Source: an uncultured Pseudomonadota bacterium
GTDB lineage: Bacteria > Myxococcota_A > UBA796 > GCA-2862545
Direction of reading: 5' to 3'
Assembly (NCBI GenBank): GCA_913061235.1
Contig: CAJXTB010000004.1
Span: 62,001 to 126,000, forward strand
DNA length: 64,000 nucleotides
Position numbers and translations under genes: made by a program. Shown here in pieces: positions 44,260 through 54,413 of this stretch (the stretch's first letter is position 1; each line of letters begins with the position of its first letter). A model generated the notes under the pieces. That model ran no database searches and was not told the origin of the DNA. It saw only the letters and a program-made list of their open reading frames with translations.

Positions 44260-45213
44260 TTAACGAGCTGCCTTGCGAACCTTCTTGTGGTCAGCCACCG
44301 CTCGCCAGTCTGCATCGTCGAGCATCGGAAGTGTGCAACCACCGAAGAAAGCGGGGTTTGCACACCAACCGACCTGTGGGCCCCCCTTCTTGACTGCCTT
44401 GTCGAAGCGCTTGGTTGCCGCAGTCCACACGGGCATGAAGGCGTCCGTTCGTAGGCCGGCGATCTGGGCCTCAATGACCATGACCTGCTCGCGCAGTCGG
44501 GCGGTCTCGGAGGCATCCGTGCCGTCTTCCAGTGCCGCCTCGACGGGCAGGCGGGCTTCGTCATCCGCACGGTTGATGCGACGAAGGGTGTCCGTCATGA
44601 CGCGCTCTGCGAAGGGTAGGACAGGAACGACTGCGGTGCCTCCGGTTGCCGTTCGGGCCTCTTGTGAAATGGTCAGAGCAGGCCATTCACGTGTCATGAG
44701 CTCCTCTACGGCCGGGGCGAGTGCGGGGTCCGCGTCCATAGCGGCTGCAATGCTGGCGTTCAGATCTTCACCGACACAGTCGGGGTTGACTTCGGTCCGC
44801 GATGGCATGCCGGGTAGCTGCCGTCCGACCGCAACACGCCCTTCACATTCTGTAGCGGTGCCGTTGTTTGCGGCAATGGCCCGCTCCATAGAGGCGACGA
44901 AGGTGCCGTCGAACTCGTCGATTAGGTCGCCGACGAATCCTTGGAGAGTGGCTTGTTCACGCGCGAACGTCGTCTTGAGCTGGTCTAGGTGGGCTTGCTC
45001 ACCATTTGGAGCGGCGTCTCCTAGAAGGTCGAGCGCTACTTGGTAGTCGTTCAGGGCATCGGCAATCGCGGCACTTCGTCCTGAGACGTCGGCGTACGTT
45101 GTCTGCATGGTGTTGGCGTTCGTGAACGTCGTCGATGCCGCCGCAATCGAGTTGGTGTCGTAGTAGCCGTCGGCAGCAACAGCGGTGGCGACGAGGGCGA
45201 GTAGGGACAGCAT
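44260..45213 (-). CDS. Secreted protein of unknown function
   Basis: A 317-residue protein. ATG 45213, six bases after GGAGG, opens a signal peptide ending VAADG; the in-frame extension before it is not coding. The mature part is helical and alanine-rich, with long amphipathic helices (about residues 25-110 and 195-280) and cysteines at the C-terminal end (GWCANPAFFGGCTLP). No family is recognised. It lies about 100 bases upstream of asnS on the same strand, and 340 bases from the tail-tube gene. Confidence 0.75.
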   Translation of the reverse strand: MLSLLALVATAVAADGYYDTNSIAAASTTFTNANTMQTTYADVSGRSAAIADALNDYQVALDLLGDAAPNGEQAHLDQLKTTFAREQATLQGFVGDLIDEFDGTFVASMERAIAANNGTATECEGRVAVGRQLPGMPSRTEVNPDCVGEDLNASIAAAMDADPALAPAVEELMTREWPALTISQEARTATGGTAVVPVLPFAERVMTDTLRRINRADDEARLPVEAALEDGTDASETARLREQVMVIEAQIAGLRTDAFMPVWTAATKRFDKAVKKGGPQVGWCANPAFFGGCTLPMLDDADWRAVADHKKVRKAAR

Positions 45214-45553
45214 GAAGACCTCCTGACCCCCAGACCCCGACAGGTGGGGTGGGGTTCCAACGAACGCCGTAACCCTCAACGAAGGGTGTCCTGCTGCGAC
45301 TCGCTCGCGACGGTACGCAAACTTCGTGATTGGGCGCACCTTTGGTGGGGGGAGCACACCGCTACGATCAGCTGACCTGCTGTATCTATGAAATGCCGCG
45401 GATTTCTAGAAGAATGGAGTTGACCGGGTCGCGGGGGGCGTGTAGGTTTCCAGAGTCTGAAGGGCGACGGCAATCGCAACATCATCCTCCGGACGCAACC
45501 GTCATTCGTAGAGCCGTCAGCGAAGGGCAAACTCCAAAGTAAGTGAGGCAAGC
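45214..45553. other. Intergenic region between the secreted-protein and tail-tube genes
   Basis: A 340-base stretch without a gene. It holds the ribosome site of the leftward secreted-protein gene at its left end and a sigma-70-like promoter candidate at 45420-45448 for the rightward tube gene, leaving about 105 bases of 5' leader. I found no conserved RNA structure, phage attachment site or other repeat in the rest. Confidence 0.7.
45420..45448 (+). promoter_or_regulatory. Sigma-70-like promoter candidate for the tail-tube gene
   Basis: TTGACC (45420-45425) and TAGGTT (45443-45448) are separated by 17 bases, the optimal spacing for a housekeeping-sigma promoter. The -35 box matches five of six consensus bases; the -10 box is weaker. 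Start would be near 45455, about 100 bases before the gene. Assignment is by eye only. Confidence 0.45.
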
Positions 45554-46000
45554 ATGCCAACAGAAGAACTTTTCGGTTCATACAACTTCCTGCTCGAGAT
45601 TTCGGGCATCACCGGCGAAGCCAAGACCATCGTCGGCGGCTTCAAGTCCGTCAGCGGCATGGACTCCGAGACTGAAGTCATCGAGTTCAAGCAAGGCAAC
45701 GACCGCGTTGTTCGTAAGAAACCAGGTCGCACCACCTACGCGAACATTGTTCTCGAGCGTGGCTACACCGCTACGGACGACCTGTGGACCTGGCGCAACA
45801 ACATCGAGAAGGGTTTGATTGACCGCCGCAGTGGCTCGATCATCGTTCTCGACCAGGACCTTGAGACCGAAGTTGCTCGCTACAACTTCTACGAAGCCTG
45901 GCCAGCCAAGTGGTACGTCCCTGAAATGGACTCCGACAGCAGCAACATGGCGATCGAGAAGATCGAACTCGCCACGGAAATGGTTGAGCGCGCTCGCTAG
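45554..46000 (+). CDS. Contractile-tail tube protein (T4 gp19-like / eCIS Afp1-like)
   Basis: A 148-residue protein matching phage tail-tube proteins of the T4 gp19/TIGR02241 family, also found as Afp1 and Pvc1 in extracellular contractile injection systems. Features: the N-terminal YNFLLEISG start, FKSVSGMDSETEVIEFKQG, KKPGRTTYANIVLERGYT, and the C-terminal YNFYEAWPAKW...NMAIEKIELA pattern. It forms the inner tube through which cargo is ejected. Length is standard. The gene has a promoter candidate upstream and a strong terminator just after, so it looks monocistronic. No sheath, baseplate, spike or terminase gene occurs in the window, so its partners must lie elsewhere. Confidence 0.88.
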   Translation: MPTEELFGSYNFLLEISGITGEAKTIVGGFKSVSGMDSETEVIEFKQGNDRVVRKKPGRTTYANIVLERGYTATDDLWTWRNNIEKGLIDRRSGSIIVLDQDLETEVARYNFYEAWPAKWYVPEMDSDSSNMAIEKIELATEMVERAR

Positions 46001-46020
46001 TCGAACGTTTCTTGATCAGA

Positions 46021-46051
46021 AGCCTCGAAGGTCTCGGCCTTCGGGGCTTTT
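46021..46051 (+). terminator. Strong intrinsic terminator after the tail-tube gene
   Basis: An 11-bp stem, AGCCTCGAAGG (46021-46031) with CCTTCGGGGCT (46038-46048) including one T-G pair, closes a 6-base loop and is followed by TTTT. It starts 20 bases after the tail-tube stop codon. It should end that transcript and argues for a single-gene unit. Confidence 0.85.
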
Positions 46052-46096
46052 GCTTGTCTGGAGAATGCTGGGTGGCATCGCTCCAGGCACCGTCTG

Positions 46097-47419
46097 CTAG
46101 CTGAACAGCGCGTTGGCCAGCGTGGCAGTGTCCCGCTCGACGCCTTCTTGAAGCAGGGGACGCAGCGTTGGCACCACTGCTCGGTCGCCGGTCTCCACCA
46201 GGCAGCGTGCGTAGGCAACCCGCTCATGGGGCTCAACGGGCACCGAGAGTGCGAGCAAGGCCTCGACCACCGCTTCCGTTGTGACCACACCTGCTAGTCG
46301 GTAGGCAAGAACGCGGGTCTCAGGCTGAGCCAAGTAGGTGATCAGGGCATCGGGGGCTTGGGCAGCCGCGCGCAACGCCATGTGTAGGTAGTGGGGGCCG
46401 CTCGCCACGTGACCACCGCAGCGCATCCAGGACGCGAGGACTTCCCGGGCTACTTTCTCGTCGTTCACGTCTAGTGACAGAGCGAGGGCGCCGGGGACAT
46501 CACTCAAGAGGCCGGCGACAATGACGTCGGTGTTGGCCGCTTGTGCTCGCGCACGGCCCAGAACGTCAGGCCTTCCGTGTGCGATGTCACCAATGACGGC
46601 CTGAACAGGGTCGCCAGTGGTGAACGCACGTGCCCAGCCTGCGTAGAGAAGACCAAACTCGCCAAGAGTGGTGTGGCGCTTGGCGGAGAAGACGGCGCGC
46701 AATGCCACGGCGAGTGCACCTTCCGCGTCTGCCAGCACGGATAGGCCGGCGTTGCGTCCGCGGCTGTGGGTGCTTCCGCGTCTGCGCTTGCTGAGTAGAG
46801 ACTTGCGCAGGGTAGCCTGGGGCGTCTGGCTTCCCAGGGTCAGTCCGGCTGCGACCACATCGGCGGGTTCGGTGTCGTCGTCGCTCAAGACCGTGTCCAA
46901 GTCGACTCTCGGTGCACCGAGGTACTCAATGAACGGCAGTAGCTGGGAGTCGTCGAGCTCTGCGACCACAGCCGTTGCAGTGGCGACGGTTGGTGAGTGC
47001 AGGACAACGGTGGCGGCCGTGAGAGGACGGTTGGCGGTCCAGGTCACCACCTTGGCCAGGGTTGCGTTCGGCAAGCGTCCGCACCAAGCGAGCAAGTAGG
47101 CAGCGTAAACAACCGAGGGGGCGTCTCGGCCTTCTAGCTGTGCGAGCAGGCCGTCCATGAGTGCAGTGTCATCTGGGTTGAGTCCGCCAAGGCCGGCGGT
47201 GTACATCAGGGCCACGCCGCGTTCGGAGGCTGTCTTGTTGTTCAAGGCCGCGCGCACACCCGCGCTCCCGAGCAGCGGAGCAAGGGGGCCAACAAGACCG
47301 GTGGCGAGTGCACGTTCGGGGGCGAGAACCGTGAGCCGTTGTCGTGCCCAGGCGCCGATCTCGTCCGTCTGTTCGGCCAAGGATTCAAGGGCATCTGGTG
47401 TGTGAAGCAGCGTCGCCAT
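46097..47419 (-). CDS. HEAT-repeat-like protein of unknown function
   Basis: A 440-residue soluble, helical protein rich in Ala, Leu and Val. Repeated helix pairs of about 40 residues, with recurrent A-x-x-L and D/E-V motifs, suggest a HEAT or armadillo-like solenoid; the C-terminal repeats are the clearest (CLVETGDRAVVPTLRPLLQEG). A short basic segment KRRRGSTHSRGR occurs near residue 215. Such proteins serve as scaffolds. In phage-tail-like gene clusters of Myxococcota helical partners are common, but I cannot link this one to the tube gene. Starts at ATG 47419. Confidence 0.72.
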   Translation of the reverse strand: MATLLHTPDALESLAEQTDEIGAWARQRLTVLAPERALATGLVGPLAPLLGSAGVRAALNNKTASERGVALMYTAGLGGLNPDDTALMDGLLAQLEGRDAPSVVYAAYLLAWCGRLPNATLAKVVTWTANRPLTAATVVLHSPTVATATAVVAELDDSQLLPFIEYLGAPRVDLDTVLSDDDTEPADVVAAGLTLGSQTPQATLRKSLLSKRRRGSTHSRGRNAGLSVLADAEGALAVALRAVFSAKRHTTLGEFGLLYAGWARAFTTGDPVQAVIGDIAHGRPDVLGRARAQAANTDVIVAGLLSDVPGALALSLDVNDEKVAREVLASWMRCGGHVASGPHYLHMALRAAAQAPDALITYLAQPETRVLAYRLAGVVTTEAVVEALLALSVPVEPHERVAYARCLVETGDRAVVPTLRPLLQEGVERDTATLANALFS

Positions 47420-52531: not shown

Positions 52532-52619
52532 CCAGACTTACGGCCTCGGCATCGGTTCCTGAACACACGGGTTGTGGTAGGCGCTGTCATTGGCGTTGGT
52601 TCGCGGTAGACTGATCACG

Positions 52620-54413
52620 ATGTCTCGTGGATACCCCCGGCGCTTCGGCGCCTACATTTTGCTGGAACGCCTCGGTGTGGGCGGAATGAGCGAAGTTGAC
52701 CTTGCTCGCCGAGCATCGGACCCAGAGGATTACGTCCGACTGGTGGTGTTGAAGCGCATCAAGGCAGATCGGCATGATGACAAGAGCTTCGTGCGCATGT
52801 TTCGCGACGAGGCACGCATCACGTCGCACCTCCATCATCAGAATATTGCCCAACTGTTTGATTTTGGTCAGGTAGATGACGAGTACTTTCTAGCCCTGGA
52901 GTACATCCCGGGTGTGGACCTGCGAGAGGTTCAGAATGCGGTCATCGAAAAGAAGAAGCGCCTGCCTATTCGTGTGACGCTGACCATCCTTTGCCACGTG
53001 CTCTCAGCCCTGGACTACGCTCACTCGCGCGTGGACAACGTTGGCAAGAGCATGAACATTGTCCACCGCGATGTGAACCCGCGAAACATCATGCTGAGCA
53101 CCCGTGGTGAGGTCAAGCTCATTGACTTTGGTGTAGCCAAGGCGGAAGACCGCTTGGAGCGCACACGTACCGACCACGTCAAAGGCAAGTTCGCGTACAT
53201 GGCGCCCGAGCAGGTGGACGGCAGCGGCATTGACAAGCGAGCTGATCTGTTTGCGATTGGACTGACCCTACACGAGCTGGTCGTCGGCAAGGGGCCCTTT
53301 GCAGGCTTGTCGCAAGTCCAGATTCTGCACAAGTTGATGTCGGGTCGGCTTCCGTCGCTTCCGCCCGTCTCCGACCTGCCGAATCCGGATGCGTTGGCAC
53401 TTATACATGAGCGCGCCTTGGCTCCCGAAAAGGAAGACCGCTACCCGAATGCCAACGCCATGCGCAAGGACTTGGAGACCGTGGCAGAGACAGTAGGGGG
53501 TCTGTGCACTGCTCTGGAACTGATGGCCTTCTTGAGGCGGTTGGACCCCCAGATTGAGCGACGTCTGCAAGACAAGATCACCACGTTTTCGGGCAAGCTC
53601 ACCTTGCCGCCAATCGTGCACGAACCCGCGCCAGTCCAACCGCTTCAGCCTTCGGACATCACTCGGGATGCTCCTCCGCCAATGTCGCTGGACAGCTCTA
53701 CAAGTGGAACGTCCGTCCGGTCGCTTGGCATTGCCTTTGGTGGCGCTGCGGTCGCTGCATCACTCTTGGGTGTGCTGGCATTGCTCGCTGTTTTGGTCGG
53801 CGTCTACGTCTATTCACTGCCTGGTGAGGGCACGATAGCGGTCGACCCGCCGAACACAACGGCTGGCTCAACGCTGCCGGTGACTGTGGAACCGGGTTCC
53901 GTCGACCCTGTGCTCGTGGAGCCCAGGGCCGATACCGCCGCTCCTCAACCGAGCGAAACGCGTCCTGTTCCAGCTGTTGTGGGTGAGCTGGCGACTCCAG
54001 AACCAGTGGTTCCAGTCGTCGTCGTTCCAGACTCAGTGATTCCAGAGCCCGTCGACGTTCCAGAGCCTGTTGAGGCAGACCCCGTCGTGGTCCCAGACCC
54101 CGTCGTGGTCCCAGACCCCGTCGTGGTCCCAGACCCAGTCGACCCAGAAGTCGCGCAGCCTGTTCCGGTCGTCAATGTCCCAGAGCCGGTTGTGCCGGAA
54201 CCAGCGGCCCAACCCGAGGCTGTGTTTGGAATCATTCAAATCGCATCATCCACACAAAATCTCGCCATTTCGATCGACGGTGTGGATACCGGAAGGGTCA
54301 CTCCGGCCAGTATGCAGGCGACGATTGGGGCACACACGGTGCAAGTGGATGGGCACGCTGCGCAAACCATCACCGTTCGCGAGGGTCTCGTGACCAACGC
54401 GCTGTTTAGATAG
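52620..54413 (+). CDS. Hanks-type Ser/Thr kinase with TM and PEGA domain
   Basis: A 597-residue membrane kinase. Catalytic domain (about 9-300): LGVGGMSEVDLAR, Lys45 in VVLKRIK, HRD at 149-151 in HRDVNPRN, DFG at 169-171, and AYMAPEQ. A membrane helix (about 372-395) follows a linker. The extracytoplasmic part is a proline-valine linker with an 18-bp tandem repeat, then a PEGA domain at the end (SIDGVDTGRVTPAS). PEGA domains bind surface or cell-wall ligands. It lies between an outer-membrane-like protein and a substrate-binding protein, so it may sense envelope signals. ATG 52620 has a weak ribosome site. Confidence 0.95.
   Translation: MSRGYPRRFGAYILLERLGVGGMSEVDLARRASDPEDYVRLVVLKRIKADRHDDKSFVRMFRDEARITSHLHHQNIAQLFDFGQVDDEYFLALEYIPGVDLREVQNAVIEKKKRLPIRVTLTILCHVLSALDYAHSRVDNVGKSMNIVHRDVNPRNIMLSTRGEVKLIDFGVAKAEDRLERTRTDHVKGKFAYMAPEQVDGSGIDKRADLFAIGLTLHELVVGKGPFAGLSQVQILHKLMSGRLPSLPPVSDLPNPDALALIHERALAPEKEDRYPNANAMRKDLETVAETVGGLCTALELMAFLRRLDPQIERRLQDKITTFSGKLTLPPIVHEPAPVQPLQPSDITRDAPPPMSLDSSTSGTSVRSLGIAFGGAAVAASLLGVLALLAVLVGVYVYSLPGEGTIAVDPPNTTAGSTLPVTVEPGSVDPVLVEPRADTAAPQPSETRPVPAVVGELATPEPVVPVVVVPDSVIPEPVDVPEPVEADPVVVPDPVVVPDPVVVPDPVDPEVAQPVPVVNVPEPVVPEPAAQPEAVFGIIQIASSTQNLAISIDGVDTGRVTPASMQATIGAHTVQVDGHAAQTITVREGLVTNALFR
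54084..54137 (+). repeat. Three 18-bp tandem repeats encoding VVVPDP
   Basis: Two identical units of GTCGTGGTCCCAGACCCC and a third differing only in its last base encode VVVPDP in the extracellular linker of the kinase. The antisense strand reads as TTTGSG-type repeats. It is probably unstable in length between strains. Confidence 0.85.

Follow-up and report, generated by a model that had tools for sequence, protein, structure and literature searches.

A scattered eCIS in uncultured myxobacteria: a main inner-tube gene apart from its cluster

The eCIS main tubes Afp1, Pvc1, AlgoCIS Alg1 and All3324 are Cis1 proteins of one family and fold, and in each of these systems the tube gene lies inside the cluster. 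eCIS clusters have also been described in Myxococcota, mostly UBA796, and the main text of that study calls the tube gene "often linked" to the sheath gene (PMC11937823). T6SSs offer a looser arrangement, in which Hcp, VgrG, PAAR and effector genes have been described from auxiliary loci (PMC10482370), and orphan hcp, a tube gene that lies outside the main cluster and serves it in trans, is the closest precedent we know of for the locus reported here, where one gene stands alone. That gene, tube1, is encoded in the window, the 64,000-nucleotide stretch of uncultured bacterial DNA that we analyzed. It shares the Cis1 family and fold and is sheath-adjacent in relatives of this organism, but here it is alone on a different contig from its cluster. 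The organism and its system, as judged by relatives named UBA796 and UBA2385, are very probably the bacterial group and system of PMC11937823, although the main text of that paper does not describe relocated tubes or empty slots. Nor did we find relocated or unlinked eCIS tubes described in the open-access literature, in a search that was not exhaustive and is no proof of novelty.

As judged from sequence and predicted fold, the product of the window gene is a gp19/Cis1-type main tube and an ordinary one, which bears out the gp19-family assignment of an earlier note on this DNA. Pfam Phage_T4_gp19 (PF06841) matched at 120.6 bits (cut-off 28.2, E=5.2e-35) at residues 9-144 of 148, so that it spans the whole protein, and no extra domain was found. 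The protein also matched the PHROG tail tube and, among PDB sequences, the main tubes All3324 (Anabaena), AlgoCIS, Pvc1 (PVC) and Afp1 (AFP). An AlphaFold2 model (pLDDT 86.4) returned CIS tubes as its top Foldseek matches, with E down to 5e-10. The Hcp family PF05638, the mark of a T6SS-type tube, had no match in the window genome (G000). The gene starts with ATG, 5 nt downstream of a GAGG ribosome site at 45545-45548. Among the more diverged pairs of lone tube1 copies, dN was.006-.025 against dS of.2-.26, indicating purifying selection. Features of the locus are collected in Table 1.

Table 1. Features at and beside the lone tube gene, in window positions.
Feature	Position	Strand	Description	Basis
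f365	44260..45357	-	left neighbor, 365 aa, no Pfam, adjoins lysS; insertion-site marker, outside the system	synteny in relatives
Candidate promoter	45420..45448	+	TTGACC-17-TAGGTT	-35 element common to lone orthologs at other sites
Untranslated leader	45449..45553	+	about 105 nt, with ribosome site GAGG	no Rfam family, no excess folding
tube1	45554..46000	+	Cis1-type main inner-tube subunit of an eCIS, 148 aa	PF06841, PDB matches, AF2/Foldseek, in-cluster orthologs
Rho-independent terminator	46017..46052	+	closes the single-gene unit	GC-rich hairpin, T-rich end
f440	46097..47419	-	right neighbor, 440 aa, no Pfam, adjoins metallo-beta-lactamase gene (mbl); insertion-site marker, outside the system	synteny

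The surroundings of tube1 have nothing to do with a tube: its neighbors are lysS, the 365-aa and 440-aa proteins and a metallo-beta-lactamase. When components of the two CISs in this genome served as tblastn queries against the window plus 20 kb on each side (L080/L081), no CIS part turned up near tube1, and whole-genome Pfam searches placed no sheath and no other gp19 gene on the 384-kb contig that holds the window. Phage or tailocin genes were likewise absent around tube1, where the neighbors are chromosomal genes syntenic in relatives. The claim that the gene stands alone, away from CIS and phage genes, therefore holds across these searches, and the terminator that it described is real. Since gp19 is a phage tail family, the gene could be what chance has preserved of a prophage, a tailocin or a CIS in decay. 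Against this stand the lack of phage genes nearby, strong purifying selection, near-top codon bias and the occurrence of tube1 in almost every genome of the order, where it is paired with a cluster that is otherwise complete, and we regard a remnant as extremely unlikely. Elsewhere in the window, an AT-skew anomaly at 32-36 kb covers ordinary membrane-protein genes with no tandem repeats, and a 607-aa Ser/Thr kinase-like protein at 52590-54413, matched by PADLOC PD-T4-6 models, is probably an ordinary kinase and not a defense gene.

The window genome is a draft of 7.18 Mb in 72 contigs, 99% complete. A whole-genome search for sheath, baseplate and AAA genes, as the earlier note had proposed, recovered them together at C1:124-149 kb, on another contig than tube1 (C4); no complete contractile cluster adjoins tube1 on its 384-kb contig. 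The C1 cluster encodes a Pvc16-type cap, sheath1, p120, sheath2, a second gp19 tube (tube2), a LysM-containing CIS_tube protein, spike, gp25, Baseplate_J, Tail_P2_I and an AAA ATPase with a winged-helix domain. The sheath, gp25, Baseplate_J, spike, LysM tube initiator, AAA ATPase and Pvc16-type cap among these mark it as an eCIS. In close relatives (L017, L018 and others), sheath1 and p120, a conserved 120-aa protein, enclose a tube1 ortholog with up to 90% identity. In G000 this slot is empty, with 115 nt between the sheath1 and p120 matches. Its Cis1 gene thus lies outside its own cluster (C4 versus C1), a variant arrangement that leaves protein homology unaffected. The p120 protein (L076:2480-2839) is highly conserved (about 71-88% identical) and follows the tube slot in every cluster read; it matched nothing in PHROG, and none of its Pfam scores reached the cut-off.

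The earlier note had offered two readings of the lone gene, a scattered injection system or a new use of the tube fold. Because the cognate C1 cluster lacks exactly tube1, and relatives carry the ortholog in that very slot, the first reading is supported. The second is not: orthologs in close relatives occupy the ordinary Cis1 slot after the sheath, and the protein has no extra domain and is under purifying selection. We put at about 0.9 the probability that tube1 is the main tube of the C1 eCIS, moved into the f365/f440 locus as a one-gene unit. The scattered eCIS is real and well supported; its protein is ordinary, but its arrangement and recurrence are not. Under the model we propose, tube1 would have left the C1 cluster for an unrelated locus with its own promoter, leader and terminator. 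Assembly would then occur in trans, with tube1 hexamers stacking on the second tube and spike inside the C1-encoded sheath, and sheath contraction would drive the tube out. The tube is thus encoded, and probably expressed, apart from the machine that it would serve by assembling with C1 products.

We then surveyed 63 genomes of the order, with linked and unlinked counts compiled by hand from two tables. p120 and tube1 were neighbors (linked) in 28 of the 63 genomes and on different contigs (unlinked) in 27; five had only one of the two and three had neither ortholog. The orthologs in the sheath1-p120 slot of the 28 linked genomes are 69-90% identical to tube1. All 20 unlinked clusters that we read have an empty slot, with sheath1 followed by p120 about 76-256 nt away and no tube between. 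Shared-neighbor analysis places the lone genes at about ten different sites. A cluster tree built from sheath1, p120 and sheath2 supports two large unlinked clades, family f4 and the f5 trio, at 100/99 and groups G000 with linked G013/G014 at 83/85. At least five changes between linked and unlinked states are needed on this tree or, by our reading, six if re-entry into the exact slot is excluded. By this comparison of genomes, the same tube relocation has occurred several times in related uncultured myxobacteria. Four contigs titled as Klebsiella pneumoniae MAGs (L036, L044, L049, L052) carry this myxobacterial tube or cluster, and their record names are evidently wrong.

The census also bears on whether the lone tube has been taken for another role without the eCIS, polymerizing or being exported by itself to act as a pore, a filament or a carrier. 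Such a role would fit the physical, and probably also transcriptional, separation of the gene from the cluster. However, the cluster has no other tube1, none of the 63 genomes of the order carries a cluster ortholog alongside a lone one, and conservation is equal between lone and in-cluster proteins, neither of which has gained a domain. A separate role would also make the repeated convergent loss of the cluster copy hard to explain. We consider it very unlikely, and take tube1 as the main tube of the C1 eCIS in what follows.

The insertion site itself can be followed in relatives. G013 and G014 have the order mbl-f440-peptidase-like-f365-lysS with no tube, and in G016 and G020 f440 and f365 adjoin, again with no tube. 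G009 has tube1 at the locus that it occupies in the window. There the gene seems to be duplicated in tandem, with damage to one copy and a break in the contig, and the G009 cluster slot is empty, so relocation into the f365/f440 locus is probably older than the divergence of genera g1 and g7. Another explanation would be an assembly or binning artefact, whereby the gene in fact belongs in the cluster or its contig to another organism: these are metagenome-type drafts, and contig ends hold some of the tube copies (G009, G027, G032, G034). Yet the window gene is well inside its 384-kb contig, G009 shares the locus with its tube, lone sites are syntenic across about 11 genomes and the slot is continuous sequence in all 20 clusters, making an artefact highly improbable.

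Several genomes hold states that could be intermediates (INTERMEDIATES). In the operonic state, sheath1 is followed after about 75 nt by tube1 and then p120. Linked clusters have a covarying hairpin before tube1, with compensatory changes in 8/8 pairs and a covariation score of 0.70 versus 0.28 in shuffles (0/500); covariation was supported only at this position, between sheath1 and tube1 of linked clusters. The conserved loop of the hairpin is GYAAGCCACC-like (L017-L041 and G-handle relatives). The empty slot of G029 keeps a hairpin relic with the GCAGGCCACC loop typical of linked clusters. In G003, G004 and G007, tube1 remains in the cluster with terminator-like hairpins on both sides, making it autonomous in place. 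Tandem duplicates of tube1 occur in the cluster in G010, outside it in G039 and probably in G009, and G069, which is outside the order, has both a cluster copy and a lone copy. From these sequences we infer a route of duplication, autonomy and then loss of the cluster copy, leaving aside the order of steps in any single lineage.

We also asked what the lone units share upstream. TTGAC occurs 60-220 nt upstream in 15 of 26 lone orthologs compared to 2.2 expected in shuffles and, counting one ortholog per site, before 7 of 11 compared to 1.2 expected (0/500 shuffles). It is not comparably present before sheath1, and a promoter common to the lone tube and sheath1 was not seen. For the promoter proposed in the earlier note, this enrichment favors the -35 hexamer, while a strict sigma-70 scan of 45420-45448 was negative and the -10 hexamer TAGGTT is only a weak candidate. 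Rfam searches of the leader and five lone loci returned only tRNA and nothing at the leader. A stabilizing 5' hairpin common to lone units was rejected (mean fold z +0.19 over 25 leaders), and with lone leaders free of excess folding no travelling RNA element was found.

G000 has a second CIS, and its main tube also appears to have been relocated. Eight relatives have this system in the order spike-sheath-tube-(second tube)-p120b-418aa-tube2, with p120b not detected in all. The G000 cluster at C22:93-103 kb has spike, sheath, p120b, 418aa and tube2, and its main-tube slot is empty. Because C22 lacks a main tube and two lone tubes lie at C2:248615-249061 and C11:167677-168123, the main tubes of both CISs appear to have moved. 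The two lone proteins are 98.6% identical to each other, 38% identical to the window gene and 39-52% identical to second-CIS main tubes of relatives. The second CIS is like the C1 system in its empty main-tube slot and lone tubes elsewhere but is a distant subtype of it (sheath 35%, tube 38% identical).

DNA similarity between C2 and C11 is 92% over 596 bp only, starting 67 nt ahead of the start codon and stopping at the terminator. Its limits, just past a leader hairpin and at the terminator, look like those of a copied transcription unit; we considered RNA-mediated copying from these homology ends and found the evidence too thin. Two other lone genes in G000 encode CIS-like parts. A 405-aa protein (C1:426753-427970; L074:9253-10470) combines a repeat region at its N-terminus with a gp19 tube domain, which shares 51% identity with the second tube of the eCIS, and an OmpA domain at its C-terminus; G013, G015, G016, G019 and G020 have lone genes like it, and the protein could tie a tube-like part to peptidoglycan. 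A 523-aa sheath (PF04984; PHROG tail sheath, E=2e-49) lies at C17:72201-73772 (L079:9201-10772), with no obvious CIS genes among the ORFs of the surrounding 20 kb.

High expression of the window gene, which the earlier note had also suggested, is supported indirectly. In a sample of about 118 genes (median ENC 47.6), tube1 has an ENC of 34.2 and a C-ending fraction of 0.92, second only to GroEL (ENC 32.6). sheath1 has an ENC of 38.6, and the low-copy parts gpJ, tube2 and sheath2 have ENCs of 45-52. In a published metatranscriptome, gp19 was transcribed more than any other gene in two Myxococcota MAGs, and it was also active in seven more, of which most are UBA796 (PMC11937823).

Why the tube moves is less clear than that it moves. 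Duplication followed by loss of the old copy would be the route, and the reason may lie in selection for making the tube separately and at a high level. We tentatively propose, well short of an even chance, that unlinking is adaptive: the tube would be moved repeatedly from the eCIS operon to its own strong, separately regulated promoter, tube supply would set the timing or number of particles, and the same pressure would act on both CISs of G000. A pure stoichiometry argument does not explain why sheath1 stays put, as only one major subunit moves. Neutral drift by duplication and loss, with the same gene and system and no benefit of separate expression, falls only somewhat below even odds; tandem and dispersed duplicates exist, and therefore either copy could go by chance. 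The bias toward the tube gene, with p120 and both sheaths staying put in the clusters read, speaks against drift, as do the involvement of both CISs in G000 and the TTGAC shared by lone units and not comparably present before sheath1, but none of these points is decisive. Any expression benefit of the relocation is something we infer.

eCIS surveys detect systems by genes in close proximity (e.g. PMC8213781), and therefore such clusters would look tube-less and lone tubes would look like phage debris. The recurrent move of one major subunit, and of the tubes of two CISs in one genome, shows that the genes of a contractile machine do not have to lie together. The linked, autonomous-in-place and relocated states form a natural comparison for asking whether tube expression controls particle production, and codon bias together with the published metatranscriptome makes the question of tube expression testable without culture.
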